The notes beneath the pieces were generated by a model. The model was not told where the DNA came from. It saw only the letters and a program-made list of their open reading frames with translations, and did no database searches. Below are positions 450-15,205 of a DNA stretch of 64,000 nucleotides, in pieces. Origin of the DNA: Sedimenticola thiotaurini (GTDB lineage Bacteria; Pseudomonadota; Gammaproteobacteria; Chromatiales; Chromatiaceae); the NCBI RefSeq assembly GCF_001007875.1, contig NZ_CP011412.1, forward strand, positions 992,001 to 1,056,000, read 5' to 3'. How positions within the stretch are numbered: the first letter of the stretch is position 1; the number at the start of each line of letters is the position of its first letter. The position numbers and the translations under genes were made by a program.

Positions 450-1892
450 TTACAGGGTGTGAGTCAGTGTCAGAGAGAGGCGATTTTCCTGATAGTCCTG
501 CCCGGCCTGATTTGAGCTTCGATCAGTAAAGCTGTAATTGAATCGCAGATTGGTCTTTTGACCCAATTGACGATTGATCCCTGCCTGCAGTCTCCAGAAA
601 TCGTTTTCCCGATTCCCGGTTCCGCTCTCTTCCTGCTGATCCCAGTTCAGGCTGACGTCGCCCGACACCTTGTCCGACAGGGTACGGCTTAACGATGCGC
701 CAAGCCCCATGGTGGATACTTCACGAGTTGAATCCTGGTAGGTCTGTTCAGACATGTCCGCACTCAGTGTCAGCGTTGTGCGCCGGCCCCGGACGCTGTA
801 ACTGAGGGCAAAGCGTTCGTCGACAAAGGTGCTGAGTCCGATACTCGGCAGATCGAGTGTAATCAGATAGGGATCGCCTGTGACAGGGTGTGGTATGAAA
901 TTACCAAACTCATCAGTAGCAAGAAACACCACCTGATTGCTCAGCAGAGTGGTGGAATCGGTCAGTTCAGTGGTATAGCTGGCGGTTAATACTGACCGTT
1001 TCGACTTGTGAGTCAGGCTCAAACGCTTGGTGGTGCCGAAAAACCGTTCACCACCGCCAATTTCAAGCTGTGTCCTGGCACTGGGGGTCCAGCGCACACC
1101 AACATCCCAGATGGAGCCATCCTGACTCGACTGAACAGAGGTAAAGTCATTGGATTCGGTACCCACTGTTCCATTTATCTGCCATTGACGGTTGATCTGA
1201 TAACCGAGGAGCAGATTCGCCGTTCTGAACTCGCTCACCTCCCCCTGGCTGTTATCGGTTGACTTGTCGCTGGCATTTACCCGCCAGCTCCAATCCGCGA
1301 ATTCAGGGCCACTGGCTACCGATAGGGAAAATTCGTCACTACTGGTATCACTCAGGTTGTTTTCCGAATGATTCAGCTCGTTGTAAGTGTAACGGAGTTC
1401 CGTGTCTGCAATGCCTTTGAAACGGCTTTTCAGGTAGGGACTGATTCTGTAGTTGTAGCTTGTGGTTCTGTTGGTGCTGTTGCTCAGGTTATCTATACCC
1501 GACACACTGAGTGAATCAATGGCATTCTGGGTTGCAGTGGCCGAAAGGTCGATAAACGCCAACCGTTCATAAAGTTCCGCATTGGCATTGGCCTGTAGAC
1601 GGGGATTTACGGTATCGGTATTGCCACCCTGCCCGTTGATCTCCAGCGCACCGGTCAGGTCAAGACTGGCACGCCCCCCCTTTCCATGCAGAGAAACACT
1701 GGGGGTCAGGGTTGCGGTCAGTTCGCCCTGTTTTGCAGTATCGGACAGATTGACATTGTCCGAATAGACAGCTCCAGCGCTTACAGAGGCCGTCCGACTC
1801 CACTCCGCAGCAGAGGCTGTTACGGGCGAAAACAGTACCCCGCTACCCAACAGGCAATGAAACAGTATTGACGCTCTCTCCCCTTTGACCAT
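450..1892 (-). CDS. PEP-CTERM/XrtA-associated outer membrane beta-barrel protein (TIGR03016-like)
   Basis: A 480-residue protein with an N-terminal signal peptide (about residues 1-28, ending near TASA-AEW) followed by a long run of alternating polar/hydrophobic beta strands and a C-terminal strand ending in an aromatic/leucine pattern (LSLTLTHTL), as in outer membrane barrels. Sequence style and position after a tyrosine autokinase match the TIGR03016 group of barrels found in XrtA exopolysaccharide loci. It probably sits in the outer membrane and serves polysaccharide secretion or anchoring; no biochemical role is established to my knowledge. The gap to the kinase gene upstream is 12 bp, so it is almost certainly in the same operon. 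Confidence 0.75.
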   Translation of the reverse strand: MVKGERASILFHCLLGSGVLFSPVTASAAEWSRTASVSAGAVYSDNVNLSDTAKQGELTATLTPSVSLHGKGGRASLDLTGALEINGQGGNTDTVNPRLQANANAELYERLAFIDLSATATQNAIDSLSVSGIDNLSNSTNRTTSYNYRISPYLKSRFKGIADTELRYTYNELNHSENNLSDTSSDEFSLSVASGPEFADWSWRVNASDKSTDNSQGEVSEFRTANLLLGYQINRQWQINGTVGTESNDFTSVQSSQDGSIWDVGVRWTPSARTQLEIGGGERFFGTTKRLSLTHKSKRSVLTASYTTELTDSTTLLSNQVVFLATDEFGNFIPHPVTGDPYLITLDLPSIGLSTFVDERFALSYSVRGRRTTLTLSADMSEQTYQDSTREVSTMGLGASLSRTLSDKVSGDVSLNWDQQEESGTGNRENDFWRLQAGINRQLGQKTNLRFNYSFTDRSSNQAGQDYQENRLSLTLTHTL

Positions 1893-1904
1893 CAGATTGA
1901 GCCC

Positions 1905-2873
1905 CTATCCATTTTCCGTGCGATTACGACCGTAGCCGTATCCATACCCGTAACCGTAACCATAACCCCCGGCTCCGTTTCTCGTGTTTGTGGATTTATT
2001 CAGCAGGAGTCCGATAACCTTCTCTTCCCCTAGGTGGCTGAGCGCCTCAACAACCTTGCTTTGTGGTGTCTGCTTCTCTGCCACCACAAAGACGATCTGT
2101 CCCATCAAATTGGCCAGCACGCCGGCTTCGGTAGTAAACAGGATAGGCGGTGAATCAAAAATGATTACCCGATCCGGATAACGTTGTGCCAATTCGATCA
2201 TCAACCGTTGCATCCCCTCACTGGCAAGCAATTCAGTAGATCGTTCATGGGCATGACCTGCCGGCAATATACGCAGGTTGGGAATACTGGTGTGCAGTAG
2301 AACATCACTGATCCGGGTACCCTTCTCCATGAGTAGATCGATCAACCCGGGATAGTCATCCGGAATACCCAGCAGCGCGGCGGCGGAAGCCTTGGCCACA
2401 TCGGCGTCCACAAACAGCACCGTCTTGTCCTGTTCCATGGCGATACTGATGGCCAGATTGATGGCACTGAACGTCTTGCCTTCACCAGGCTGGGCACTGG
2501 TCACCATGATCAGGTTTGGGTTATCGACCTTGGTGGCGCCCTTTCCGGCAATATTCATAAGCAGCGGACGTTTGATTATCCGGTTCTCTTCCGCCACTCG
2601 GCTACGTGGATCATCCGGTGTGACCATGCCGAGTGATTTCAGATAACCAAGCGGAAGTTCGACGACGGTCTTGTTCCTTTTGCCCGCTGCGCTGCCGGTT
2701 GGCTCACTGCCTGCAGACGCTGCAGGTTGTCCCTGCTGATCCGCTGGAGCCTGGGCCGCCGCCGATGCATCGACATCTGAATCAAGCGAACGACCAAATT
2801 CTTCTGCCAATTCACCCCGTTTATCGGTCTGATCGACATGAAGCTTTTCGATAGCTTTTTCAATAATGCTCAT
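1905..2873 (-). CDS. XrtA-associated tyrosine autokinase (BY-kinase, EpsG/TIGR03018 type)
   Basis: A cytoplasmic P-loop kinase of 322 residues. Walker A is in SAQPGEGKT (about residue 130), Walker A' in LFVDAD and Walker B in IIFDSPP. The C-terminus carries six Tyr-Gly dipeptides, the tyrosine cluster that BY-kinases autophosphorylate. It partners the transmembrane chain-length protein encoded just upstream: the start codon overlaps that gene's stop by 4 bp (ATGA), so translation is coupled. Autophosphorylation of the cluster normally controls polymer length and export. The N-terminal 90 residues are Ala/Gln-rich and probably disordered. The call rests on motifs plus context and is firm at family level. 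Confidence 0.9.
   Translation of the reverse strand: MSIIEKAIEKLHVDQTDKRGELAEEFGRSLDSDVDASAAAQAPADQQGQPAASAGSEPTGSAAGKRNKTVVELPLGYLKSLGMVTPDDPRSRVAEENRIIKRPLLMNIAGKGATKVDNPNLIMVTSAQPGEGKTFSAINLAISIAMEQDKTVLFVDADVAKASAAALLGIPDDYPGLIDLLMEKGTRISDVLLHTSIPNLRILPAGHAHERSTELLASEGMQRLMIELAQRYPDRVIIFDSPPILFTTEAGVLANLMGQIVFVVAEKQTPQSKVVEALSHLGEEKVIGLLLNKSTNTRNGAGGYGYGYGYGYGYGRNRTENG
1932..1967 (-). repeat. Hexanucleotide array encoding the Tyr-Gly tail of the autokinase
   Basis: Six imperfect 6-bp units (Tyr codon plus Gly codon on the minus strand) sit in the last 20 codons of the autokinase gene. Both TAT/TAC and GGT/GGC/GGA/GGG codons are used, so the array is degenerate rather than perfect. Each unit is in frame, so slippage would change the number of phosphorylatable tyrosines without breaking the gene. 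Confidence 0.85.
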
Positions 2874-4453
2874 AAAATCCTGGCCCCAAGGCTTTGTACT
2901 TTCCCTAATAGATCAAAGCCCATCCCGTGCATCAGATTGACTCCAAGAAACAACGTTCCCAACAATAACACCAGGGACACGAACATCGCACCTGCAAGCC
3001 GTTGTCGGCGTTTTTCGGCAGCCGATAATACATAGACCACTGAACCCAGAACCGGAAGGCCGGTGACGCGATTCAGTGCGCCACGGCTGTAGAATACCGG
3101 TCGGATCAAAGACGTCAGAAGTGCCAGGCCAACGCCAGCTGCCAGGCTGGCAAGGAATACAGCCGCATTCAGCAGAAGTTTGTTGGGCTGGGACGGTTTC
3201 AAAGGTACGAACGGCGGATCGATAACGCGGAATTTCACTTCAGAAGCATCCTGCTCCGCCTTTTCCGACAGATGGGCCGACTCCCGGCGTTTCAACAACG
3301 CCTGATGCTGCTGGGAAACCGCATCGTAATCCCGGTTCAACTGCTGTAACTCGGCTTCAATCTGGGGAATCTGATCGACCTTTGCCTCCAGTTCCTTAAC
3401 CCGCTTGTCGTACTCCGCGACGCGCACCTTGAGCTCCGCCACACGCGCCTCGGCTTCAGACAGATTGGTTCTCATCTGCTGATATACCGGACTACTCTGC
3501 AAGCCAAACTGGGGCGCAAACGGCTCGGCCTGACGCGCTTCCAGCTCCTCCTTCTTCTCAGCTTCCAGATTGGCAATAATAGTTTTTATCTCGATAACAT
3601 CGGGATGCCGCTCGGTGTACTTCAACAGCAGTTCATCGAGTCGTGTCTGAAGATTCTGTATACGCTGATCCAGTCGTGACGGGGTGCCAAACTCATCACC
3701 CCCACTGGGAATAAATACCGGCTCTTCACCGGACAACTGGCGTTTCAGCTCCGCCCGCCTGTTCTCTGCTTCGCGCAGTTCCAGTTTTGCTGAACCCAGC
3801 AATCCTCTCGCCGCATCGAGACGTTGATAATAACCGCCCTGCTCTCCCGGCATGGTGCCGACATAACGACGCTTGAAATCAGCCAGCCTGCCTTCCGCTT
3901 CTGCCAGCCTGATTTCATACTCGGCGATCTGTTTATCCAGGAACTCCTGGGCACCAGCGCTATCTTTCCGTTTATCACCCAGAGCGCTCTCGATAAAAAT
4001 CGAGATCAGCGACTGTACTACCCGCTGTGCAACGAGGCGATCAGAGTTGGTATAGGCGATTGAATAGAGGGAGGCGTTGCTACGTTGACCACTCAGCCTG
4101 ATATTTTCCCGCAACTCGGTTATCAGGCTCTCCTTATCCTGATCGTTCCTGATCTTAAGATCCAGATCGACCATCCGCATCAGCTTTTCCATATTCGGAC
4201 GACTGAGCAGCGTCTTGCTCATCAGAGCGACCCGCTGACCCACATCCGGCTGAATTGCAAGACCTCGCAACAGAGGCCCTAACACACTGTTGCTGTCAAC
4301 GTGCAGCCGGGCTGTCGCTTCATACTTGTCCGGAAGTTGGGCCACCACGATCCAGCCCGCGATGGCAATAATCCAGGCAGCCGCCAACGCCACCCAGCGG
4401 AATCGCCAAATACCGTAAAGATATTCCTGAATCTGTTCTAGAAGTTCTTGCAT
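2870..4453 (-). CDS. XrtA-system polysaccharide chain length determinant (Wzz family, TIGR03007-like)
   Basis: A 527-residue inner-membrane protein. An N-terminal membrane segment (about residues 18-37) precedes a Wzz domain; a long charged helical region (about 175-410) is strongly coiled-coil-like; a second membrane segment lies near 430-455, and a third hydrophobic segment near 490-515, close to the C-terminus. The periplasmic coiled coil sets polymer length, and the cytoplasmic end contacts the autokinase encoded next (4-bp overlap). The extra C-terminal membrane segment is a trait of this exopolysaccharide subgroup. It follows the export lipoprotein gene after a 214-bp gap with a strong hairpin. 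Confidence 0.9.
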   Translation of the reverse strand: MQELLEQIQEYLYGIWRFRWVALAAAWIIAIAGWIVVAQLPDKYEATARLHVDSNSVLGPLLRGLAIQPDVGQRVALMSKTLLSRPNMEKLMRMVDLDLKIRNDQDKESLITELRENIRLSGQRSNASLYSIAYTNSDRLVAQRVVQSLISIFIESALGDKRKDSAGAQEFLDKQIAEYEIRLAEAEGRLADFKRRYVGTMPGEQGGYYQRLDAARGLLGSAKLELREAENRRAELKRQLSGEEPVFIPSGGDEFGTPSRLDQRIQNLQTRLDELLLKYTERHPDVIEIKTIIANLEAEKKEELEARQAEPFAPQFGLQSSPVYQQMRTNLSEAEARVAELKVRVAEYDKRVKELEAKVDQIPQIEAELQQLNRDYDAVSQQHQALLKRRESAHLSEKAEQDASEVKFRVIDPPFVPLKPSQPNKLLLNAAVFLASLAAGVGLALLTSLIRPVFYSRGALNRVTGLPVLGSVVYVLSAAEKRRQRLAGAMFVSLVLLLGTLFLGVNLMHGMGFDLLGKVQSLGARIL

Positions 4454-4581
4454 ATATCCCTGCTAGGCTCAACTGGTTGAGCTACTAACCTCAATGTCCC
4501 TACTGGGCCCTATCCTGAATTTGGTCTACCGAATGCCGGATCAACGCCCGGACACAACATCAACCGCATATACGACTGAAA

Positions 4582-4618
4582 GGTCGGAGCCTGTCTATTT
4601 CAAAGACAGGACCCGACC
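4582..4618 (-). terminator. Strong hairpin between export lipoprotein and chain-length genes
   Basis: Arms at 4582-4596 and 4604-4618 pair over about 14 bp with one A bulge on each side and a 7-nt loop. On the minus strand it follows the export gene stop (4668) and precedes the chain-length gene, and is followed by a weak TTTC. It could be a partial terminator or an mRNA processing element that sets lipoprotein excess; it lacks a good U tract. Confidence 0.5.
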
Positions 4619-4667
4619 AGTTTTACATCTTGCCACTCGTCCCACTTAAGCAGCACATGGCCGAAAT

Positions 4668-5306
4668 CTAGAACCAGGCCTCGGGGATAATCATGATATC
4701 GCCGGGCATCAGTGCTACGTTCGCGGAGATATCGCCGTCCTGAACCAGGTCTTCCAGCCGCACGTTATAAACCTGCTGCTCACCATCGATATTGCGGATC
4801 AATACAGACTTGTTGCCATCGGCAAATTCAGTCAGCCCACCCACCTCAATCATCAGATCAAGCAGAGTCATGTGCTTTCTGAACGGCACCGTAAGTGGCA
4901 CAGCGGCCTCGCCAATCACCCGCACCTGCTGATTGGGAACTCCAACGAACTCGTCCACAATAACGGTGACTACCGCGTTTTTCACATATTCTGAATAGGC
5001 CTTTTCAACGTCCCGGGCGAGTTGGGTTGGCGTCTTGCCGCTGGCCTGAATATCTTCCACCAGGCGGGTGGTGATTTTGCCATCCGGCCGCACGGGAACA
5101 GAAACTGTCAGCTCCTCGTTACCCCAGACAAAAATATTCAGCTCGTCGCCTGGACCGATAATGTAGTCAAAGTCCTGAGCTGATTGAAGCTGATCACTGG
5201 TAACCTGGGGGTATTTTGATGCACATCCAGCTACCAGCATTACCAGCACAACAAGCAGGCAGCGCATTAACAGCTGACGTGAAAATTGCATTTTAGTGTT
5301 AGGCAC
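4668..5306 (-). CDS. XrtA-system polysaccharide export lipoprotein (Wza-like, TIGR03027-like)
   Basis: A 212-residue lipoprotein. The signal peptide ends in a lipobox (LVAGC, Cys about residue 28), followed by a polysaccharide export (Poly_export) domain with the DYIIGPGDELNIFVWGNEEL-type opening and a SLBB-like C-terminal half. It should form the outer-membrane end of the export path with the chain-length protein downstream. It is shorter than enterobacterial Wza, as usual for this group. The GTG at 5306 with GGGAGA about 10 nt upstream is the likely start; an ATG five codons later is an alternative. It is the first gene of the visible minus-strand exopolysaccharide operon. Confidence 0.88.
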   Translation of the reverse strand: MPNTKMQFSRQLLMRCLLVVLVMLVAGCASKYPQVTSDQLQSAQDFDYIIGPGDELNIFVWGNEELTVSVPVRPDGKITTRLVEDIQASGKTPTQLARDVEKAYSEYVKNAVVTVIVDEFVGVPNQQVRVIGEAAVPLTVPFRKHMTLLDLMIEVGGLTEFADGNKSVLIRNIDGEQQVYNVRLEDLVQDGDISANVALMPGDIMIIPEAWF

Positions 5307-5739
5307 GAGCAGGTTCTCCCTTACGCTATATTGTTTTACAACCGTTCAACGGGTAATTGGCCAAAACGGGGAATCATCGGCGGGCCCCCGCCACTGACTC
5401 TTCCCACTTCCCTATACATATCCTTTCGTCCGGCGTCTTTGCCTGCCGCCTCTCCCCGTGATCATGAGCCGGAAGCTGGCGGGCAGATTTCATTCAATAT
5501 ATAAGGATAATAATCCAACTTACTGGACTTGTTAATAAAATAGCACCACATATTACCCTAGCGGTAGCTATTCAACCAACTATAAACGGCCTGATCGTAA
5601 CATGCGAGCCGCAAATTCCAACACCGCCGAAGATAAACATCCCCATAAATGCGCCAGAAACAAGTTTACATCCTGACAGGACAGGAAAACAGTCACTTAT
5701 AGAGGAGATTGAAATAAGAATAAAAAGAATCCCTCTGAT
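5307..5739. other. Intergenic region, likely holding the promoter of the exopolysaccharide operon
   Basis: 433 bp without a convincing gene. The half nearer 5306 must contain the leader of the export lipoprotein gene; it includes a GC palindrome-like stretch near 5379-5392. The half nearer 5740 is AT-rich and lies downstream of the RND gene stop. I looked for a sigma-54 -24/-12 element on the minus strand, expected for some XrtA loci, and did not find a convincing one. Confidence 0.5.
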
Positions 5740-8424
5740 TCAAACACCCCCGTCATCTCCCCCATTGGACCGTTTAGTAAATAGAGGCTCCTGTTTTACT
5801 ACAGCCGGGTGCCTGGAATAGATGATTATCAGTATTGCCGGCAGGAGCAACAGATCGAACAGCAGAGCGGCGATCAGACCTATGCTGGTCAGGAGGCCGA
5901 AATGGGTGGTTGGAACAAACTCAGAAAATGTCAGCACAATGAATTGCGCACTCAGGATGATCGTGGTGGTCATCACGGCCCGACCGGCCTGTCGATAGGT
6001 CTTCACCAGGGCCACTACCGGGCTGACCCCCTGTTTTACCCGACTGATAAAGCCATGATAGACGTGAATGGTATCATCCACCGCAATGCCAACCGCCACA
6101 CTGGCAATCATCGCTGTAGCCATATCCAGCCATAGACCAAACAGCCCCATCACTATGAATATCAACAGGATAGGTGACAGATTCGGAATCATGCAGAGTA
6201 ACGCGCCGCCGAGCGATCGCCACTGGATAAACATCAGGAGGAAAATAAGCACTAAAGCACCAAACAGGCTTTTCACCTGCCCCTCGACCAGCAGATCCTC
6301 CTGATCGGCGAACAAGCGCCCGAACCCGGCTATCTCCCACTCAACACCATCCAGAGAGCGATTACCCAGATATTGCCGGACCTGCCCCATCAATTCAGAA
6401 AGCGCGTTGGCCCCATGTACATTCACATTGAGACTGATATGGGTGATCCGGTACTCCTCATCGACAAAATCAAACAGATCATCACCGTCATAGACCAGCA
6501 GGTACTGACTGATCAGAGCGGGATTGTCCGGTATGCGCCGGAATGCAGGGTTTTCCGCATTGAACCCCCAGTGCATCTCTTCAACGAAGTCCGCCATGGA
6601 GATACTCTTATCCACCTCAGGTAAGGACTCCGCCCAGTGTTGAAACGCCCGCATCTCCTTTAGAATTGCCGGCTTTTTCAAGCCGCCCCGCTCCGCGGCC
6701 TTAAACACCACATCCAGGGAAGCCGTACCCACCAGTTTCTCCTCGATGTGCTGGGTTGATTTCCGCAGCGGATGGCTCGGATAGAAAAACTCCTGGAGGT
6801 TGGTCTCCACCACGATATTGCCGACCTGGGGCACAAAGATGACGAACAACAACCCGATGGAACCCACCACATACAGCGGATAGCGGACACCAACACGGAA
6901 CAGTTTGCTGACTAACTTGTCCAGTCCCGACAACCCGGTCTTCCGATTCGGCCAGGGCTCATAATCAAATCGTGAGAAGATATTGGGTACCAGGTGAATC
7001 ACCACGAAATAGATCAGCACCACACCGGTTGCGGAGATCAGTCCAAACACCTTGATTGGCGGAATCGGGCTCAAGCCCAGGGATGAGAGCCCCGCCACGG
7101 TCGTCATGGCAGTATAGAACGCCGGTCGACGCACTTCCCTGAGCGCACTGTTGACCCGGTCCGGTCCGGTCAGACCCCGCTTGGAGGCATAATGGAGAGC
7201 ATTAAACAGATGAACCAGTGCCGCCACCGTCAGGGCCGACAACAGGGGCGGAATAATACTGGAGATAAGATTGAATGGCTGATTGAAAATCACATAAAAC
7301 GCCACCGTGGAACTCACCACCACTCCGATGACGACGCCCGCCACAATAACGGCAAGCCAACGGTGGAACAGCCACCAGATCAGAAACAGGCCGATCACTG
7401 TAGTGGCCGGGATAAACAGCATATTATCCCGCAACATGGAACGCATCTGCGCCACATCGGTGGTAATCTGCCCGGCCATACCGGTCAGGTATCCGTCCAG
7501 CCGCGCCGCCTTCACGTCGGCAAGGATCTCATCCTCAAGTGCCAATCGTTCCAGACTGGAACCGATCGGCTTGGGTATCACCAGCATGGATAGCGCCGAA
7601 CCATCCGCCGCCACCAGGGTGTTTTTGGCAAAACGATCGGATACCACACGTGCTTTGCGGGCACTCGGCCGGGTCTTCTCCAGCGCCTTGACATTGACCA
7701 GTGGCTCAACCAGAAATCCATCTTCGGTACCATGGATGTGGTCCTGGGTGGTGATGTTCATAACATCATCAATTAACGGATTGGCTGCCAATGTACTGGC
7801 CAACTGGTTAAAGGCGGTGACAAAACCATCCGAGTAGAGTGCCACCCCCTCAAACAGCAGCAGGACCGCCTGATCACTGGGAAAATAACGCCTTACCTCC
7901 CCATCAATAACCACTGAAGGAGCATCTTCCGGCAGATACACTTTGGGGGCGTTATTAATATTGAGATTCAGCAACAGGCCATTCGGCAGGACCGTGAACA
8001 GAAACAGGAACAGTACACTGAAGTAGAATTTCCAGGGCAATCCGAGAAAAATGTTCTTCAGCCCGACATCGGCCTCTGTAACAGGTGAAAACTGGATAGT
8101 CTCTTCGCCATCAAACTGGCTGGAGCAGGAGTTGAGTATGGCCACCAGGTGGCTGCCATCCCGTTTCAGCAGTGTTACTTTGACCTGGGGATACTCCCGG
8201 GCGCTCCTGGGCACATCCCGCGCTACAGCAAAGTGCTCCCGCAACCGATCCTTATGGCGATCAACCACCAGATCGAGTACCGGTATCGCCTCCAGTTCAT
8301 CGAATGACTCATACCCCAGGAGCGCAAGGAAGGCAGGGTTGGCATAGACGAACATGCCCTCATGCTGAATGGCAATCGGCTTGCGATCATGCTCTAACCT
8401 GGCGTATCGGCTGTCAGCTTGCAT
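5740..8424 (-). CDS. PAS domain-RND (MMPL) transporter fusion
   Basis: About 894 residues from the ATG at 8424 (AGGT about 7 nt upstream); an in-frame start at 8475 would add 17 unlikely residues. Residues ~5-110 form a PAS domain (VYANPAFLALLGYESFDEL). An RND/MMPL permease follows: one membrane segment near 130-155, a periplasmic loop, a membrane cluster about 330-480, a second periplasmic loop and a C-terminal membrane cluster with the AVDDTIHVYHGF signature near TM10. This is the HAE/MMPL class that moves lipids or hydrophobic molecules. A cytoplasmic PAS sensor at the N-terminus is unusual and suggests redox- or ligand-gated transport. It is last in an operon with a beta-barrel protein and a LolA-like protein. 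Substrate unknown. Confidence 0.85.
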   Translation of the reverse strand: MQADSRYARLEHDRKPIAIQHEGMFVYANPAFLALLGYESFDELEAIPVLDLVVDRHKDRLREHFAVARDVPRSAREYPQVKVTLLKRDGSHLVAILNSCSSQFDGEETIQFSPVTEADVGLKNIFLGLPWKFYFSVLFLFLFTVLPNGLLLNLNINNAPKVYLPEDAPSVVIDGEVRRYFPSDQAVLLLFEGVALYSDGFVTAFNQLASTLAANPLIDDVMNITTQDHIHGTEDGFLVEPLVNVKALEKTRPSARKARVVSDRFAKNTLVAADGSALSMLVIPKPIGSSLERLALEDEILADVKAARLDGYLTGMAGQITTDVAQMRSMLRDNMLFIPATTVIGLFLIWWLFHRWLAVIVAGVVIGVVVSSTVAFYVIFNQPFNLISSIIPPLLSALTVAALVHLFNALHYASKRGLTGPDRVNSALREVRRPAFYTAMTTVAGLSSLGLSPIPPIKVFGLISATGVVLIYFVVIHLVPNIFSRFDYEPWPNRKTGLSGLDKLVSKLFRVGVRYPLYVVGSIGLLFVIFVPQVGNIVVETNLQEFFYPSHPLRKSTQHIEEKLVGTASLDVVFKAAERGGLKKPAILKEMRAFQHWAESLPEVDKSISMADFVEEMHWGFNAENPAFRRIPDNPALISQYLLVYDGDDLFDFVDEEYRITHISLNVNVHGANALSELMGQVRQYLGNRSLDGVEWEIAGFGRLFADQEDLLVEGQVKSLFGALVLIFLLMFIQWRSLGGALLCMIPNLSPILLIFIVMGLFGLWLDMATAMIASVAVGIAVDDTIHVYHGFISRVKQGVSPVVALVKTYRQAGRAVMTTTIILSAQFIVLTFSEFVPTTHFGLLTSIGLIAALLFDLLLLPAILIIIYSRHPAVVKQEPLFTKRSNGGDDGGV

Positions 8425-8550
8425 AGTATTACCTGGATTCCCTATCCGACCCCGCCAACACGGCACCCAACGCACCGGATTCGGTGGCCAGATTCCACCC
8501 CACCGCTCTGCTGCTGACTAACCGACAAGCTACTGCAATTCCAGGACGTA

Positions 8551-10056
8551 TCAGAACTTGGCACGCCACCCGACAGCCAGAAGTGAATTGTCCTCATGAT
8601 ATCCACCCGGCGTACCATCGGCCCCTTCGAAGTAGTGAGCCTCCAGATAAACCTCCTGGGAATCCCAACCGGTGTAGGCTATCTCGGGGTTCAGATAGAG
8701 ATCATGGGTATCCAGCCCCTTATAGAAACGCCCTTTCAAGCGCCACTGTTCATGGGCAAATGGCACTTCAAAAGAGCCGCCAAACAGGTAGATCTCGGTG
8801 CGGTCAATAACCGCCGGTGCATCATCATGGTTTATACCGGTTAACTGCAGATTGACCCGGGCATCTCCATCGCCGGGGAAAAACTCCACACCCGCACCCC
8901 AGTTAACACTCTTGACGGTATCGTATGATCCATCCAAACGAGTAACCGGGGCATCACTCATCCAACCCGCTTCAAACCGCCAGATCGCCCCCATGGCTTC
9001 AATGCCGACATCTCCCCCCAACAGCCAACTGCGCTGATACTTGGCCTCCAGCACACCACGGGCATTGTTGAAGCTGAAATAGGGCAATGATTGTCGGGTC
9101 TTCTGTACCGTAAGAGCATAATCAAGCCCCTCTCCGGTGCCGCTGTAACGGAGCCCAAAACCGCCATCCGAGTCTGACGCATCCACATCCACCGGGACAC
9201 TTTTGATCAGGGCAGCGAACGCGGGAGTTGATTTCAGGCCCAGAATCTGACCGGTCTGTTGATTAACCGGAAACCAGAGACTGGAGTAGCCGGGGAGTTC
9301 CGCCTCTCTGAACCAGGGCAGAAATACCAGATCCAGCTTCTGGTCACCAAAGAAGTGTTCGTAACGAATCGCCGGCGATGCACGCCGCCGGTCAGCCAGA
9401 TCGTCCATAATGTAGCGTGTGATATCCTGGGTGCTGAGTCGATCGGTAGGTGGAAACTCATCGATCCGGCCCCACAGAATCTTCTGTGCGCCGGCGGTTA
9501 TCCGGAAATTATCCCCACGATAACGGATAAAGGTTTCGTCATAGTCCAGTTCAGCGTGATCCCAGTCACGACCACCATGCTGGGAGTAGCCGTCCGCCCT
9601 GACTGATGCCTGCAGATCCCAACGACTGGAGGGGGTCCAGAGGGCCGTTACCTGGCCGTGCAGATAACCCAATCCATTGGCATTTGAAGCGGAATGGGTC
9701 ATTACACCGTACTCACCCCACAGCTCATCCAGTTTCAGGGAGAAGTCACTGCTTTCAACCATCGCCCGCTCTTCGCTCCCCGTATCGGACAGCCCATCCG
9801 GCTCAATCAGAATCTCCTCTTCGGAGGCCGGAAGGGTGTCGTCATCGCTCAGTTCAATGGTCAGTTCACCATCATCCTGCTCATCAATGATCAGCAACTC
9901 TTCCGTCGGTGCTGCCACCGAACCGCCATCATCGATAACCAACTCCTCTTCCTCGATCAACACCTCATCTGCGGCCAGGGCAGCCGATGGAGAAAGCGCA
10001 ACTGAGAACAGTAGCAGTGGCGCGAGATGGTAGACTGGATACTTCGAGTTTGCCAT
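8551..10056 (-). CDS. Outer membrane beta-barrel protein with acidic N-terminal region (DUF1302-like)
   Basis: From the ATG at 10056 the product is about 501 residues. A signal peptide ends at SAALA-ADEV (about residue 28). Residues ~30-95 are very acidic, with four imperfect repeats around EELVIDD / EELLIIDE / ELTIELSDDD / EEILIEPDG. The rest (about 110-501) is strand-rich with many aromatic residues and a C-terminal aromatic strand (VGWRAKF), typical of an outer membrane barrel; the KILWGRIDEFPPTDRLS region resembles DUF1302-type porins. The LolA-like gene lies 40 bp upstream and the PAS-RND gene 126 bp downstream, suggesting an envelope-spanning transport route. An in-frame start at 10128 would overlap the upstream gene and lacks a signal-peptide context. 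Confidence 0.75.
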   Translation of the reverse strand: MANSKYPVYHLAPLLLFSVALSPSAALAADEVLIEEEELVIDDGGSVAAPTEELLIIDEQDDGELTIELSDDDTLPASEEEILIEPDGLSDTGSEERAMVESSDFSLKLDELWGEYGVMTHSASNANGLGYLHGQVTALWTPSSRWDLQASVRADGYSQHGGRDWDHAELDYDETFIRYRGDNFRITAGAQKILWGRIDEFPPTDRLSTQDITRYIMDDLADRRRASPAIRYEHFFGDQKLDLVFLPWFREAELPGYSSLWFPVNQQTGQILGLKSTPAFAALIKSVPVDVDASDSDGGFGLRYSGTGEGLDYALTVQKTRQSLPYFSFNNARGVLEAKYQRSWLLGGDVGIEAMGAIWRFEAGWMSDAPVTRLDGSYDTVKSVNWGAGVEFFPGDGDARVNLQLTGINHDDAPAVIDRTEIYLFGGSFEVPFAHEQWRLKGRFYKGLDTHDLYLNPEIAYTGWDSQEVYLEAHYFEGADGTPGGYHEDNSLLAVGWRAKF

Positions 10057-10096
10057 GTAAATCAATTCCCTTATATGTTGTGAGCAGGCTGTTGAA

Positions 10097-10918
10097 TCAG
10101 GGGCGATAGGCCTTTTCGTTACTGTCATCAGTCAGATCGCGCCTGGAGAAGAGCCGATCCGGCAATCCCTGATTGTATTTAATCTTTTTTGTCAATAACC
10201 GGGTACGGTGTCCGGACTCCAGATCGTACATGGTACTCTCCAGAATCGACCAGTAGCCCTGGATTTTCTTGATTCTTCTGGCGGTGAGCATTTTGCTGGG
10301 CCGATCCTTGCCTTTCTCGAACAACTCCACCTTGAGCGGCACCAGTATTCCGCGGTGAATACAGCTGATCCGCTTCGAGTAGACCGAATTATCCGGATCC
10401 CTGGGAGTGCTGATCAAGATTTCGCAGGGCACTTTTCCAACCGCCCCTTTCCCCTGCAGGTAGTGGTAGTCCATCTCCACCTCCCGATCCAGCAGATCCT
10501 CGTAAAAGAAGTCTGAGCCAACAAAACGACCACCCTTTCTGGACGAGGATATTCTGCGCACCTTGTTCAGGGCTGGCAGATAGAGCCACTGGTCGCTCTC
10601 GTCGCCCGGATGATCCTGGGTGAGCAATCCAGTTCCACTGATATCATCAGGCTGAATGAACCGCATCAGGGTCCAACGCTCCTTCTCACCCTTCTCCTTG
10701 GCATAACTGTAGAGTACCCGCTGCCTGGGACTGCTCTCCTTACCCTGAAGCTGCATCACCACCAAGGCACTGAAATCATCGCCATTGGGACGATCATAAA
10801 CAGCCTGAGCCAGCGCAGTTCCCTCGGGGTTGCTGGGAGGCTCAGCGCCAAACAGGACGACAGGAATAATCAGCAATATTGCCGTCATTACCCGTCCCAT
10901 TGAGCCGATTGTGACCAT
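10097..10918 (-). CDS. Outer membrane lipoprotein-sorting protein family (LolA-like) periplasmic protein
   Basis: About 273 residues from the ATG at 10918; codons 7 (MGRVM) and 11 are alternative starts. A short signal peptide (ILLIIPVVLFGAEPP) is followed by a LolA/LolB-like fold: RVLYSYAKEKGEKERWTLMRF, a DQWLYLPALNKVRRI segment and FVGSDFFYEDLLDREV, as in the outer membrane lipoprotein-sorting (pfam17131-type) proteins that travel with RND permeases. It probably carries a lipid or hydrophobic cargo across the periplasm between the RND pump and the barrel protein. The reading frame stays open to 11155 but that extension has no signal-peptide logic and is AT-rich, so I exclude it. First gene of a three-gene operon. 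Confidence 0.78.
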   Translation of the reverse strand: MVTIGSMGRVMTAILLIIPVVLFGAEPPSNPEGTALAQAVYDRPNGDDFSALVVMQLQGKESSPRQRVLYSYAKEKGEKERWTLMRFIQPDDISGTGLLTQDHPGDESDQWLYLPALNKVRRISSSRKGGRFVGSDFFYEDLLDREVEMDYHYLQGKGAVGKVPCEILISTPRDPDNSVYSKRISCIHRGILVPLKVELFEKGKDRPSKMLTARRIKKIQGYWSILESTMYDLESGHRTRLLTKKIKYNQGLPDRLFSRRDLTDDSNEKAYRP

Positions 10919-11681
10919 AGATTTATCTACCGAGTGAAGGCAAGCAAACAGTCTTAATAGTTTATATATGAAACATTCTATAAGCACTTGAAAGTATTGC
11001 AAGATAATTCGCATAAATAGCCGATAAAGCCAGCCAAACCATAACCGGAACAGAGCGGATGGCGAGTAACGCAGCGTCCCGTAAAAGGAGAAATCACACC
11101 CAATTATGTGGCCGTCGGTGTTCCGGCGATTGAGAAACATGTCGCATATCGGCAAATGGCCGGATCAATCTATTCCGGATCAATCATCCAAAACGCCACC
11201 CACTGACCGCCCAACAGAGAGTGATACCACCCGAAACGACCAGCCACACCCACACGAACGGACTCAAAAGACCGCGACACCTGTCAGATTTCTTTACAGA
11301 ATGAACCCCAACCTTAAACAGGTATTAATTAATCCATTGATTTTAAATAACATAATCACAATGGCGTGATAATTGCTTTGGCTATAGTTAGCAGCGATAA
11401 TATAGCGATTGCGGCGGCCCAAACGGGAATCCCGCCAGATTGTTTCCACAACCAAGCAGCAGATGGCCTGTGGATAGATTGTTTGAAAGTCCCGAAACTC
11501 CGGTGTGAAGTGGTAGTGTAGCGGCTCATCCAGTAAACTGGGAGAGTTCGTCAGTTGAAACCAGCAGTAATCCGGCATCGACCTGAGGTAACGGCTGGTA
11601 AAGCTTCGAATCAGGGATAGACTTGGAATAAAATCTGGATATCAAGTCCAGAAAACCAATACGCCAACAGGGTATTAAGTA
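10919..11681. other. Long divergent intergenic region
   Basis: 763 bp between the LolA-like gene (minus) and the exported SPGYWKNH gene (plus). Composition becomes AT-rich around 10920-11010 and 11300-11400, as expected for promoters on both sides. Small open frames exist on both strands but none has a ribosome site plus plausible protein. An inverted pair GACTTG/CAAGTC occurs near 11610-11650 just upstream of the plus-strand gene. Nothing else is recognisable. Confidence 0.5.
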
Positions 11682-12278
11682 ATGTCGAAGAATCGAGAGA
11701 CAAACAGCGAACAGAAAATGGATGTGTCGAACGAAGAGCAAATCTCATCGAGTCGCAGACGCTTCACCAAGGCCGGATTGCTTGCCTCCCCGGTACTGAT
11801 GACCGTGGCCTCACGACCGGTATTCGGTGTTGGCTGTCTCTCCAACATGCTGTCCGGCAACCTGTCCGACCCTAATCGCGGCGAATGTAATCTTGGACTC
11901 AGCCCCGGCTACTGGAAAAACCATCCCTCTGCGTGGCCAATGCCTGCGGGTGTTTTGCCCGATGGCTCAATTCCGAGCAAATGCCGCCAATGCAAATCCA
12001 AACAGAATGGGCTTGTAAGTTGGGAATGTACAGACGGCGCCCTGTTTAATGACTATTTTTCCAGCGGGCCGCAGGATAGCCAGAATCGATCCATGCTTGA
12101 AATACTCTGCACCGATTCTGGCAGTGACAAATTCCATATTATCGCAGCACTGCTCAACGCCATGGTTGACCCTAACTACGTGTTGAGTGTTCAGCAGGTT
12201 AAAGCACTTTGGATCGATACGACCCTGGGTGGACAAATAAGCGATTTCAAGGCGTTTCTGAACAGCACCTGGACCTGA
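11682..12278 (+). CDS. Exported Cys-rich protein with SPGYWKNH motif and Tat-like signal
   Basis: A 198-residue protein. Residues ~23-50 form an SRRRFTKAG plus hydrophobic segment ending VFG-VGC, resembling a twin-arginine signal. The mature part carries LGLSPGYWKNHPSAWP (about residue 72), a motif seen in many uncharacterised surface proteins, and a later SGSDKFHIIAALLNA segment that usually accompanies it. Seven cysteines occur after the signal (including a CRQC pair), pointing to disulphides or metal binding. The start at 11682 has AGGG about 9 nt upstream. It is convergent with the nucleotidyltransferase/HprK-related/PqqD operon and shares a perfect terminator hairpin with it. Function unknown; a link to that operon is inferred from proximity only. 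Confidence 0.75.
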   Translation: MSKNRETNSEQKMDVSNEEQISSSRRRFTKAGLLASPVLMTVASRPVFGVGCLSNMLSGNLSDPNRGECNLGLSPGYWKNHPSAWPMPAGVLPDGSIPSKCRQCKSKQNGLVSWECTDGALFNDYFSSGPQDSQNRSMLEILCTDSGSDKFHIIAALLNAMVDPNYVLSVQQVKALWIDTTLGGQISDFKAFLNSTWT

Positions 12279-12308
12279 CTCCAGTCAGACCCCGTGAGTC
12301 AACAATCA

Positions 12309-12351
12309 AACAACCGGTAAGACCAGTGAAAAACAGGTCTTACCGGTTGTT
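12309..12351. terminator. Perfect 16-bp bidirectional terminator hairpin
   Basis: Arms 12309-12324 and 12336-12351 are exact reverse complements with an 11-nt loop. It lies between convergent genes and its right arm includes the last codons and stop of the nucleotidyltransferase gene. On the minus strand it is followed by TTTGATTGTT, a fair U tract. Confidence 0.8.
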
Positions 12352-13464
12352 GTCTATAAAGCGCAGCACTTCCGGCGGCATCGTCTTCTCATCCTCACCC
12401 ATCGCCGCTTTCCGAACCAGATGGGGAATAAGCAACCGCAACGGCATGCGGAGATAGTGAGATCTGACATAGAGCATCCACCTTGCCAATCCGGTTCCCC
12501 ACCGGTTACAGCTGGCATGATCCGGCCGTAAAGCCCGCTGGAACAGACTATCCATCAAGGGCATGGACAGGCCCCCCGGCATTCGCTCCTCCATCCATCC
12601 CTTTACCCCATTCGGAATTTTCAGACCCAACAGGTTCTCGACGTAGCGGAGCCCGTAGATCAACGGCCGCACCAGATCCAACTCCACGGCCCGGTCGCAA
12701 AGCTCCTGCCAGAACCCGTCCCGCACTGAAAAGTGTCGCAACAGCTCCGCGATATCCACCAGATCTCTCAGTCCATGCTCCAGTTCCCCATCATGGAACA
12801 GATGGGTGGCGCTGTGCAGAATCATGTCGAGATCGCACAACCAGTAGAGATCATCCGGTGCCCCGTCATTAACCGCCCGGGAGATCAATTTATTCGCATC
12901 CGGTTTCAACCTTGCCGTCAGGGGCAGGATTGAGTGGTGAATATCGAGCACCGTCTGGCGCCGCACCTGCTTCATGGGAGGGATCTCATGCATCCAGGTA
13001 CGGTAGTAGCGCTGGTCATAGGCACTGGCATGGGTGGATCGCCACCCCCAGGCCTTTAACTCCTCCTCCACCGGCTCGAGCATGGACCGGGGTACCAGGA
13101 TATCAATATCATGAAACAGCCGACCCCGGCTGATGGGCAATCCCGCCATAACATAGGCGGCCCCCTTGAGCACAATCACGGGAACCGCCAGGCTATAGAG
13201 CGCCTCATGCAGTTGTGAGATTTCCCAACGAACCGCCTGAACGCTACGCAGTGCAATCTTGTATGCCCCGTTTAAATGCAGGAACGGTTGTTCGGGAATT
13301 TTGCTCTCAAGCCCCTGGTCAGTTAACACCACATGAAGATGGGCCAACAGGTTGGCCGCTTTGGCTTGCCGAATTAACAGATCCCATTCATCTGCGCCAA
13401 ATCCGGTGACTCTGTCCGGCGATTTGAGCACTTGTATCAGAAGCGGCGTAACCATATCAGGCAA
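12340..13464 (-). CDS. Nucleotidyltransferase family protein (NTP_transf_5-like) of the HprK-rel-A cassette
   Basis: A 374-residue soluble protein. The nucleotidyltransferase core is seen at about residues 98-128: VIVLKGAAY followed by GRLFHDIDILVPR, i.e. the G...R...D-x-D metal-binding pattern. The C-terminal half is helical, with an HHSILPL and SATHLFHDGELEHGLRDLVD stretch typical of PF14907-type proteins. Members of this family sit beside HprK-related kinases and PqqD-like proteins; a related transferase also occurs in some lasso-peptide clusters. The likely reaction is NMP transfer to a protein, peptide or small molecule; the acceptor is unknown. Its start overlaps the kinase stop by 8 bp, so the genes are translationally coupled. 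Confidence 0.8.
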   Translation of the reverse strand: MPDMVTPLLIQVLKSPDRVTGFGADEWDLLIRQAKAANLLAHLHVVLTDQGLESKIPEQPFLHLNGAYKIALRSVQAVRWEISQLHEALYSLAVPVIVLKGAAYVMAGLPISRGRLFHDIDILVPRSMLEPVEEELKAWGWRSTHASAYDQRYYRTWMHEIPPMKQVRRQTVLDIHHSILPLTARLKPDANKLISRAVNDGAPDDLYWLCDLDMILHSATHLFHDGELEHGLRDLVDIAELLRHFSVRDGFWQELCDRAVELDLVRPLIYGLRYVENLLGLKIPNGVKGWMEERMPGGLSMPLMDSLFQRALRPDHASCNRWGTGLARWMLYVRSHYLRMPLRLLIPHLVRKAAMGEDEKTMPPEVLRFIDNNR

Positions 13465-14380
13465 CCACCTCTGTATCAGCCAGAATTTGATCCATGATGG
13501 TTAACGCCTCATTCAGACGGGAGTACTCCAGGGTATAGACCGGGTAACTGTCGATTAATGTTCTGGCCGAATCAAACCCCTCCTTGCCCAGAATATGGGA
13601 ATTGAAGGCATTCTCCTGTATCTCCATCAGCGCCCGGGTCTTGGCACTTTTGATCAGGTTCGTATCGCTGCCCGCCCGGTATTTTGGGAATACGATCGCA
13701 CCGGGCTGACAGGCAATGGGAGCTGAATCCACACTGGCACGGGTCGGTTTCAGGTGTGCCACTGTGCCCTTTGCCGTATCCCTGGCCGCAGGGCCGATTT
13801 CAGCACTGCTGGAAAAATTTCTGATGACTGTTATGGATTCATTTTTAAGACTCACCGGTCTCGGTACCGGAGTGATCTCCAGGGACTTGGGATCCATCAA
13901 GGCCATCTCATCCGACAGGAGGCGCCAGCCCCGCAGGCTCATGGCCGCGCACAAAGTGCTCTTTCCGGAACCGGGTACACCCGGCATGATGATCCCCCGC
14001 CCATCTTTCTCGAGGACGGCGGCATGCACGATCAGATAGTGGTGGGCCATGGTGGCGATACACCAGTTCAGCCCCCACTCGAACATGGCAAAGGCGTGCA
14101 CATAGGGCAAGGGCTTGAATGGCGCGTATTCATCCAGCAGGAAGCTCACCTGGGGCTTTATCCAGCGCCGCAGACCGCCGGAACGCTTCAGGGTGATATG
14201 GAAATCAAAGAAGCCCGTCGTATCGGCGGTTTCGTACTGCTGGTAGAAGAAGGCCACATGACGCTGCAGATCAGGGATAGCAGAGCGCAGATTGATCCAG
14301 AAGGGTCCGATCTTTACAGGAAGCCCCGGGCCGGATAGTTGGCGGGCCATTTCATGATGGCTGAGTTCTCCGATCTTCAC
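13457..14380 (-). CDS. HprK-related kinase A
   Basis: A 307-residue protein whose C-terminal two thirds resemble the HPr kinase/phosphorylase catalytic domain. The P-loop is MPGVPGSGKST (about residue 138), and LLSDEMALMD follows about 25 residues later as in HprK. The N-terminal ~110 residues are a family-specific domain. No HPr or PTS gene is near, so the substrate is not the usual HPr. HprK homologues can phosphorylate lasso-peptide precursors (ThcoK family), which makes a peptide substrate plausible here. Start overlaps the PqqD-like stop by 4 bp (ATGA), and its end overlaps the nucleotidyltransferase gene, giving a tight three-gene operon. Confidence 0.85.
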   Translation of the reverse strand: MKIGELSHHEMARQLSGPGLPVKIGPFWINLRSAIPDLQRHVAFFYQQYETADTTGFFDFHITLKRSGGLRRWIKPQVSFLLDEYAPFKPLPYVHAFAMFEWGLNWCIATMAHHYLIVHAAVLEKDGRGIIMPGVPGSGKSTLCAAMSLRGWRLLSDEMALMDPKSLEITPVPRPVSLKNESITVIRNFSSSAEIGPAARDTAKGTVAHLKPTRASVDSAPIACQPGAIVFPKYRAGSDTNLIKSAKTRALMEIQENAFNSHILGKEGFDSARTLIDSYPVYTLEYSRLNEALTIMDQILADTEVVA

Positions 14381-14685
14381 AATGTGTCTGATACAACCAG
14401 GCCTAACGAGCGGAAAGTGCGCAGTGAAGTGACTATCGATTCAGTCAATCCGGCATCGTTATCAATATGAAAATAGTCCGCCGCCGCTGCCGACAGCTGT
14501 TGATGGGTCAACTGCTCCTGCTGTAATCGCTTGAGCAGATACTCCCCCAATGGATTCAACATCAGCGTATCACCCGATCCCTGATGAAACAGTACCGCCT
14601 CTTCCTCATCCGGCCAGTCAGCCCAACAGAACTGCTCCGGCCCATTGGCAAACCACCGAGTTCCTGCTCCTTCAGTTAACTCCAT
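14377..14685 (-). CDS. PqqD-like (RRE-type) protein of the HprK-rel-A system
   Basis: About 102 residues from the ATG at 14685; GTG at 14694 and TTG at 14730 are alternative in-frame starts. The pattern (a W at the front, VLFHQGSGDTLMLNPLGEYLLKRL, then a DND...SIVTSLRTFRSLGLV helix) is that of PqqD-like winged-helix proteins, which bind leader peptides in RiPP pathways. It is the first gene of the operon and is coupled to the HprK-related kinase by a 4-bp overlap. By analogy it should present a substrate to the kinase and nucleotidyltransferase. I see no radical SAM enzyme, cyclase or protease nearby. Confidence 0.78.
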   Translation of the reverse strand: MELTEGAGTRWFANGPEQFCWADWPDEEEAVLFHQGSGDTLMLNPLGEYLLKRLQQEQLTHQQLSAAAADYFHIDNDAGLTESIVTSLRTFRSLGLVVSDTL

Positions 14686-15004
14686 ATCACTCACGTTATC
14701 TGTTTTCCAAGCCTTGACCGGCAAATCCAATCAGTTATCCAACCTGCGGGGTTAGGATAACGGTTATGCCTCAACGAATGAATACAAACAGGCAATAAAT
14801 CGTATCAAATTGACAAATCCGATCATCACAGGATCAGCACCTTACCGCCTCTTCCGGTTCCATACCCTGTGCTGCGGTAGTGAATGGATTGGCTATGCTT
14901 TTAGCTGGGCGGACCCGAAACAGTCTGTCTTTGGCACTACGATAACCAGATCTTTTCGAATCGGTGGACTAGCCTGTCACCGGTACACCAGTTGGGAGAA
15001 TACG
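14686..15004. other. Divergent intergenic region between PqqD-like gene and a small membrane protein
   Basis: 319 bp. It must carry the promoter of the PqqD-like/kinase/transferase operon on the minus strand and probably that of the 66-residue membrane protein on the plus strand (SD GGGAGA at about 14994). I searched both strands for a short precursor-peptide gene with a ribosome site and did not find a convincing one. Confidence 0.5.
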
Positions 15005-15205
15005 ATGAATGCACTATTGACAACCCTCGGCTCATTGGCCGGCACTGTCGGCATCCTGATCTGTCTGATCGCGGGCGTAACCCGGCTGTCCGGCAGTTAC
15101 TATCTGTTCGGGTACAGCGCGCAAAGCCTGTTAATGATCGGTGCCGTCGCCATTATCGTGGCCTGTTATCTGAAGTTAGAGCACCTCTCCCGAACCAGTC
15201 GATGA
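15005..15205 (+). CDS. Small membrane protein, 66 residues
   Basis: ATG at 15005 has a good GGGAGA ribosome site 7 nt upstream (the frame is open further left, but without a start signal). The product has two hydrophobic segments (about residues 5-27 and 41-55) linked by RLSGSYYLFGYSAQS and ends in a basic tail, so it is probably a two-pass inner-membrane protein. No family recognised. It converges with galE, whose stop is 10 bp away. Function unknown. Confidence 0.6.
   Translation: MNALLTTLGSLAGTVGILICLIAGVTRLSGSYYLFGYSAQSLLMIGAVAIIVACYLKLEHLSRTSR

Follow-up and report, generated by a model that had tools for sequence, protein, structure and literature searches.

Kinases related to HPr kinase take part in the modification of lasso peptides. 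In excerpts of PMC10368454, BsfK, the kinase of a lasso cluster, phosphorylates the precursor at Ser3, the PqqD-type RRE (recognition element of ribosomally synthesized and post-translationally modified peptides, RiPPs) BsfB1 speeds the reaction, and the same Bsf cluster also holds a predicted nucleotidyltransferase gene. Passages of the review PMC9266682 describe PadeK, which phosphorylates a C-terminal serine, and the pair PsmK and PsmN, which brings about (poly)phosphorylation plus hexose addition. Lasso clusters with HPr-type kinases, PqqD proteins and an uncharacterised nucleotidyltransferase also appear in a portion of PMC7533575. Here, a cassette with these three enzyme types was analyzed together with the neighboring gene of an exported protein. 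Both lie in a stretch of 64,000 nucleotides from Sedimenticola thiotaurini (contig NZ_CP011412.1, positions 992,001 to 1,056,000), called the window below. Judged by the families TIGR04352 and TIGR04353, the cassette is what NCBIfam names the HPr-rel-A system. The exported, leader-bearing protein is the likely target of the cassette enzymes before leaving the cell, because the enzyme genes travel with such a partner across many genomes.

In the library searched, no paper was found on HPr-rel-A, HprK-related kinase A, PqqD family peptide chaperone, NTP_transf_5 or PF14907. Among the matches listed in wider searches, no title or abstract opening described this system. Two RRE papers, checked by term, contained neither HPr nor kinase in the main text.

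The Cassette Genes

A first-pass annotation of the window had recognized three minus-strand genes for a PqqD-like protein, an HprK-like kinase and a nucleotidyltransferase, and this was confirmed by the open reading frames (ORFs) and by family scores over the cut-offs. The HprK-related kinase A (13457-14380, minus strand, GTG start, 307-aa ORF) scored 379.7 bits against TIGR04352 (cut-off 200). The PqqD-like protein, a proposed leader-binding subunit of the RRE type, is encoded on the minus strand at 14377-14685 from an ATG or at 14377-14730 from a TTG. It reached 44.6 bits with TIGR04353 (PqqD_rel_X, cut-off 35) and 27.4 bits with PF05402 (cut-off 23.4). The nucleotidyltransferase (NTase) gene, also on the minus strand, covers 12340-13455 from an ATG or 12340-13464 from a TTG, and its product gave 179.8 bits with PF14907 (NTP_transf_5, cut-off 31.2). 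The 4-bp overlap annotated between the pqqD and kinase genes was found, whereas the 8-bp overlap annotated between the kinase and NTase genes needs the TTG start, and relatives use ATG. In the loci L002-L004 this ATG lies 2 bp past the end of the kinase gene. Since it matches the ATG at 13455, the two genes of the window are more likely 1 bp apart. Where the partner gene and the 3' end of the NTase gene converge, there is a terminator-like hairpin with 19-nt arms of 95% complementarity (12309-12351); it is strong and overlaps the NTase stop.

The annotated P-loop motif MPGVPGSGKST was present in the kinase. H119, GxGK140ST and D157-E158 (numbering of the 307-aa ORF) were kept in 64-65 of 65 aligned homologues. 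The G...R...DID motif was located in the NTase as KG98...R112...D116-I-D118. K97, G98, R112, D116, D118 and H173 were kept in 57 of 57 homologues and D171 in 53; the motif KG...R...DxD...DxH was chosen from this alignment, not from Pfam. An AlphaFold2 model of the NTase was of moderate quality (predicted local distance difference test, pLDDT, 72; predicted template modelling score, pTM, 0.77), and Foldseek matched it weakly to nucleotidyltransferases, with no match reaching E<=0.001. Searches against the sequences of solved structures gave the kinase no match and the NTase a single one, at chance level (E 0.59).

The Exported Partner Protein

The first-pass annotation had also found no precursor peptide and no known scaffold. 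This did not hold, as its own interval contains the gene of an exported protein (11682-12278, plus strand, convergent with the cassette genes), which is the constant leader-bearing partner and the proposed substrate. The shared twin-arginine leader, located by an iterated hidden Markov model (HMM), spans residues 22-51 (SSSRRRFTKAGLLASPVLMTVASRPVFGVG, 11745-11834, plus strand). The leader consensus is RR-x-(L/F)-(L/I/T)-K-(G/A)...P-(V/A)-(I/L/V)-x-(T/S)-(L/V)...A, with RR present in 70 and the Pro in 54 of 71 partner leaders. TatC, of the twin-arginine translocation (Tat) pathway, is encoded in the window genome. Neither Pfam nor NCBIfam gave a match for the window partner at E up to 1, the PEP-CTERM domain included, although HMMER filters can lose short models. 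No match over the cut-off was recorded for the eight partners scanned with NCBIfam or the six scanned with Pfam (best sub-cut-off E 0.003).

For comparison, 81 distinct loci with flanks were gathered. Of these, 74 were counted as kinase A, L006, L127 and L128 via BLAST or record annotation and not by the curated model; the other seven, with a kinase below the cut-off or unscored, were set aside (L064, L065, L066, L075, L121, L122, L129). L002-L004 were dropped as duplicates of L118, L116 and L117 from the same contigs, and L001, L007-L035, L096-L110 and L123-L126 were dropped as short loci. Partner detection by a gene-caller and simple twin-arginine rules missed many starts and gave noisy counts (near 37/520 vs far 38/604; in another run, near 53/442 vs far 33/604), and six-frame profiles were used instead.

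A leader profile was seeded on 14 loci belonging to other classes, mostly with XrtA genes around them, and searched over 15,281 six-frame ORFs from the 81 loci. At E<0.05 it matched 20 non-seed ORFs, all within ~1 kb of a kinase, and the first match not adjoining a kinase had an E of 0.99. The iterated profile converged on 49 of the 81 loci, including the window (E 4.9e-13), and every match adjoins a kinase. Weaker scores (E 0.07-0.18) were obtained for L067, L120, L045 and L049. Partners were assigned by inspection in L036, L047, L051, L069 and L070 and in ten sphingomonad-type loci (L053-L061, L128), where the leader is a variant one. A local leader-bearing partner was thereby found in 68 of the 74 kinase-A loci, 49 by the iterated profile and 19 by weaker scores or inspection. 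Inspection of the set-aside loci showed an RR-leader peptide near four of them and none near L065, L122 and L129. The profiles detected PqqD in 61 and the NTase in 69 of the 81 loci, some of the gaps being short contigs or diverged genes.

Co-occurrence and Displaced Partners

The kinase scored over the cut-off in 61 of 398 genomes of the host phylum, in 4 of 247 genomes of the phylum of the Acidobacteria match and in 0 of 14 control genomes. Close relatives belonged to Sedimenticola, with kinases 72-76% identical. Four of the 61 genomes (G077, G153, G173, G189) had no long-flank locus. A genome-wide model of 24 leaders (threshold E<=1e-5) was then applied to the 398 genomes. The leader was found in 36 genomes, all within the 61 kinase-positive ones and none among the 337 others (Fisher p 4e-35 without correction for kinship, which inflates the counts). 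Of 37 matches, 32 lay at most 3 kb from a kinase. The window leader, itself a row of the model, was the sole full-length match in its own genome (E 2e-14), with a 15-residue partial match elsewhere (E 0.0019). No leader match at the threshold was obtained in 25 of the 61 kinase-positive genomes; the variant sphingomonad-type leaders are absent from the model. Among 38 relatives, 12 were leader-positive, 11 with a kinase over the cut-off and one (G409) with its kinase gene cut by the contig end; two 15-residue partial matches occurred elsewhere (E ~0.002). Because the leader was confined to kinase-bearing genomes, relatives included, it was concluded that it is not a generic export signal.

Six kinase-A loci had no local partner. 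In four of them (G069, G081, G125, G268) the leader protein is carried on another contig, and no PqqD was detected at the kinase locus by profile. In G069, G125 and G268 a PqqD-like gene, the only PqqD found there, directly follows the displaced partner. An extra partner copy in G185 is also followed by a PqqD-like gene; none was seen at the displaced partner of G081. The PqqD proteins beside displaced partners matched our own PqqD profile at E 1e-12 to 5e-22, the Pfam PqqD cut-off being passed by the G185 copy only. Two arrangements were seen within the host genus: in G399, G401 and G405 the partner gene is found upstream of pqqD, and in G000, G398, G400 and G403 it is inverted and downstream. 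Genomic traits of a RiPP-type system were found, namely a common leader, variable cargo and a gene linked to a PqqD-type protein. The earlier suggestion of the exported protein as the target is strongly supported by the leader profile, the co-occurrence and the displaced partners with PqqD. The comparison of neighborhoods, where a fixed different substrate might have appeared, gave the exported protein as the constant neighbor.

Plasmid searches detected kinase A and the NTase in records of Vibrio alfacsensis and Sphingomonas alone; for the kinase, Sinorhizobium and Methylosinus records added diverged matches. The locus on the plasmid of V. alfacsensis, a fish-associated Vibrio (L127), contains kinase A, the NTase and a 270-aa RR-leader protein.

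Cargo and Candidate Modification Sites

Past the leader, the 71 partners formed 22 BLAST clusters. Kinase-A partners are 59-287 residues long and most partners are ~130-290 aa. Short ones of 57-78 aa occur with diverged kinases (L064, L075, L121) and with kinase A (L130, L131). In the largest cluster (28 partners) conservation of at least 90% is confined to one Gly, one Trp, one Ser and three Cys, and the Ser belongs to C-(W/L)-x-S, close to the C-terminus. Cys52, Ser54, Ser58, Pro75, Phe126 and Asn159 reach the same level in the window cluster (14 partners). Ser54 (13/14) and Ser58 (14/14), located just past the leader (11841-11855, plus strand), are the candidate modified residues.

A gene for a protein with TPR and sulfotransferase parts (PF13469 in the one member scanned) was observed after the kinase in 12 loci (L038, L040-L042, L077, L081-L083, L089, L093-L095). 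The partners in all 12 have Tyr-Tyr just before CWxS, which is absent in 13 of 17 relatives without the gene (Fisher p 6e-5, from only three genera). This protein may sulfate the partner. Separately, diverged HprK-like kinases below the TIGR04352 cut-off (L064, L066, L075, L121) adjoin peptides of 57-71 aa with RR leaders (one KR), which hints at a wider class.

Genomic Surroundings

The cassette lies near an XrtA/PEP-CTERM exopolysaccharide locus, which is context outside the cassette proper. On the minus strand it encodes a TIGR03016 outer membrane protein (450-1892), a TIGR03018 tyrosine autokinase (1905-2873), a TIGR03007 chain-length determinant (2870-4453) and a TIGR03027 export protein (4668-5306). 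An exosortase gene lies ~4 kb left of the window (G000:C1:987228-987941). In many relatives the cassette is surrounded by XrtA genes for glycosyltransferases and amidotransferases. The link between XrtA and the cassette is real but not obligatory, since an exosortase (E<=1e-20) was found in 31 of the 61 kinase-positive vs 41 of the 337 kinase-negative genomes. Between the exopolysaccharide genes and the cassette a minus-strand group (5740-11155) codes for a protein resembling RND-type transporters, one of 525 aa that has no family and a LolA-like protein (PF17131). Genes for phosphate transport (pst) and a HAD hydrolase/glmU/glmS group are found close to the sphingomonad-type cassettes, as annotated in L128 and inferred via common gene families in L053-L061. 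No lasso cyclase or B2 protease was detected by NCBIfam among the 12 window proteins scanned at 450-15205.

Proposed Mechanism and Alternatives

Based on sequence comparison and on analogy with lasso clusters, it was proposed that the cassette is probably a leader-guided modification system for a Tat-type exported protein, which would undergo serine phosphorylation followed by an addition to the phosphate. The PqqD-like protein would bind the twin-arginine leader in the cytoplasm and present the exported protein to the HprK-like kinase. The kinase would phosphorylate a conserved serine, namely Ser58 or Ser54 in the window protein and, in relatives from XrtA loci, the C-W-x-S serine close to the C-terminus. 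A nucleotidyl or sugar group would then be transferred to that phosphate by the PF14907 enzyme, and the finished protein would be exported, probably by Tat, and would work in the envelope or the exopolysaccharide matrix. This was taken as the best reading because the three enzyme types occur as in lasso clusters and the partner bears a leader. Phosphorylation and/or further modification of the partner, as the first-pass annotation had supposed, also fits the characterized lasso-peptide kinases and the nucleotidyltransferase homologue in the excerpts of PMC9266682 and PMC10368454. A bolder form, in which a RiPP-like leader doubles as the Tat signal, the added group is a phosphate-linked sugar or nucleotide and, in XrtA loci, this phospho-glycan, as the point of attachment or priming, ties the exopolysaccharide to a protein, appears rather unlikely to us.

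Several observations weigh against leader-guided phosphorylation of the partner. In the excerpts of PMC10368454, Ala changes in the supposed RRE-binding motif of the leader left phosphorylation by BsfK intact, and for PsmN a passage of PMC9266682 leaves room for a true nucleotidyl transfer, the glycosylation being done by the host. Of the local partners, 19 of 68 rest on weak scores or inspection, and two of the 74 kinase loci had no partner found (L063, which has PqqD, and L091, which has neither). No NTase was in reach in 12 of the 81 loci, some on short contigs. A model row came from 13 of the 36 leader-positive genomes, and the G101 leader is identical to a row, so that 22 or 23 genomes were held out; among the 12 leader-positive relatives, seven had their own row. 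The Tat-signal family of NCBIfam had no match in the eight partners scanned, and the predicted structure of the partner was unusable (pLDDT 38). The conserved serine also differs in position among partner families. The motif C-x-x-S was counted in 56 of 71 partners vs 20.7 expected by shuffling; it is not claimed as universal, because only 11 of the 22 cargo clusters carry it vs 5-10 for other spacings.

In one alternative, the PqqD-like protein is a chaperone of the Tat leader. The kinase and NTase would gate export, as a form of quality control, through action on this chaperone or on the leader, and the cargo would stay chemically unaltered. The leader is indeed the element common to all 22 cargo clusters, PqqD stays with the displaced leader proteins in three of four genomes, and the window genome has TatC. 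However, the phosphate of the lasso precedents is on the core peptide in the parts of PMC9266682 and PMC10368454 that describe them, and the sole serine conserved to at least 90% in the 28-partner cluster lies near the C-terminus, outside the leader. Such gating was considered improbable. Also doubtful is a role of the enzymes in making or decorating a sugar or small molecule that belongs to the XrtA exopolysaccharide pathway, with the exported protein no more than a co-regulated envelope neighbor. The position of many cassettes among XrtA genes and the exosortase excess in kinase-positive genomes speak for this, but the partner is kept in sphingomonad-type, Acidobacteriota and Vibrio plasmid loci, near which XrtA genes were not seen, its linkage survives inversion within the host genus, and a displaced partner keeps PqqD beside it. 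A small molecule would, besides, need no peptide-binding subunit. Least probable is a RiPP natural-product cluster in which cleavage of the exported protein frees a small modified peptide in the manner of lasso peptides; the shortest partners would suit it, but the usual partner length and the 12 neighboring window proteins, free of lasso cyclase and B2 protease, argue against it.

With the exported partners, an enzyme system that had a name and no function gains a concrete candidate substrate family. If the leader-guided modification is true, RiPP-style leader logic extends to whole exported proteins, whose export signal serves as leader, and bacterial matrices may contain a phospho-linked protein modification of a new kind.

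Comparison with Known Systems

The XrtA/PEP-CTERM system neighbors the cassette of the window and of many relatives; the partner differs from its proteins in having an RR leader and no PEP-CTERM match, and the cassette also occurs away from XrtA genes. The kinase was rejected as an HPr kinase/phosphorylase (TIGR00679, 20.2 bits vs cut-off 240; PF07475, 18.9 vs 33.3), the P-loop region aligning weakly. Similarity to the SynChlorMet system was also weak, as the kinase scored 29.3 bits against ScmC (TIGR04249, cut-off 125) and the PqqD-like protein 17.4 bits against ScmD (TIGR04248, cut-off 100), both far under the cut-offs. The top Foldseek matches of the NTase model, MenT1 and ANT(2''), have the DxD motif in common with it and indicate the fold class only (E 0.1-1.6, TM-score on the query ~0.3).

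With the HPr-rel-A system the kinase and PqqD families are identical, adjacent and above the curated cut-offs; the family names give no substrate, and the partner described here is without a Pfam or NCBIfam family over the cut-off. The phosphorylated lasso clusters differ in that their precursor is short, whereas the partner here is a Tat-type exported protein, often of 130-290 aa, and no protease or cyclase was seen beside the cassette. The likeness to BsfK and to PsmN/BsfN is drawn here at the level of enzyme type. In these clusters, as far as the excerpts describe them (PadeK/ThcoK, BsfK-BsfB1-BsfN, PsmK-PsmN), a PqqD-type RRE, a kinase and a nucleotidyltransferase stand together, as they do here.

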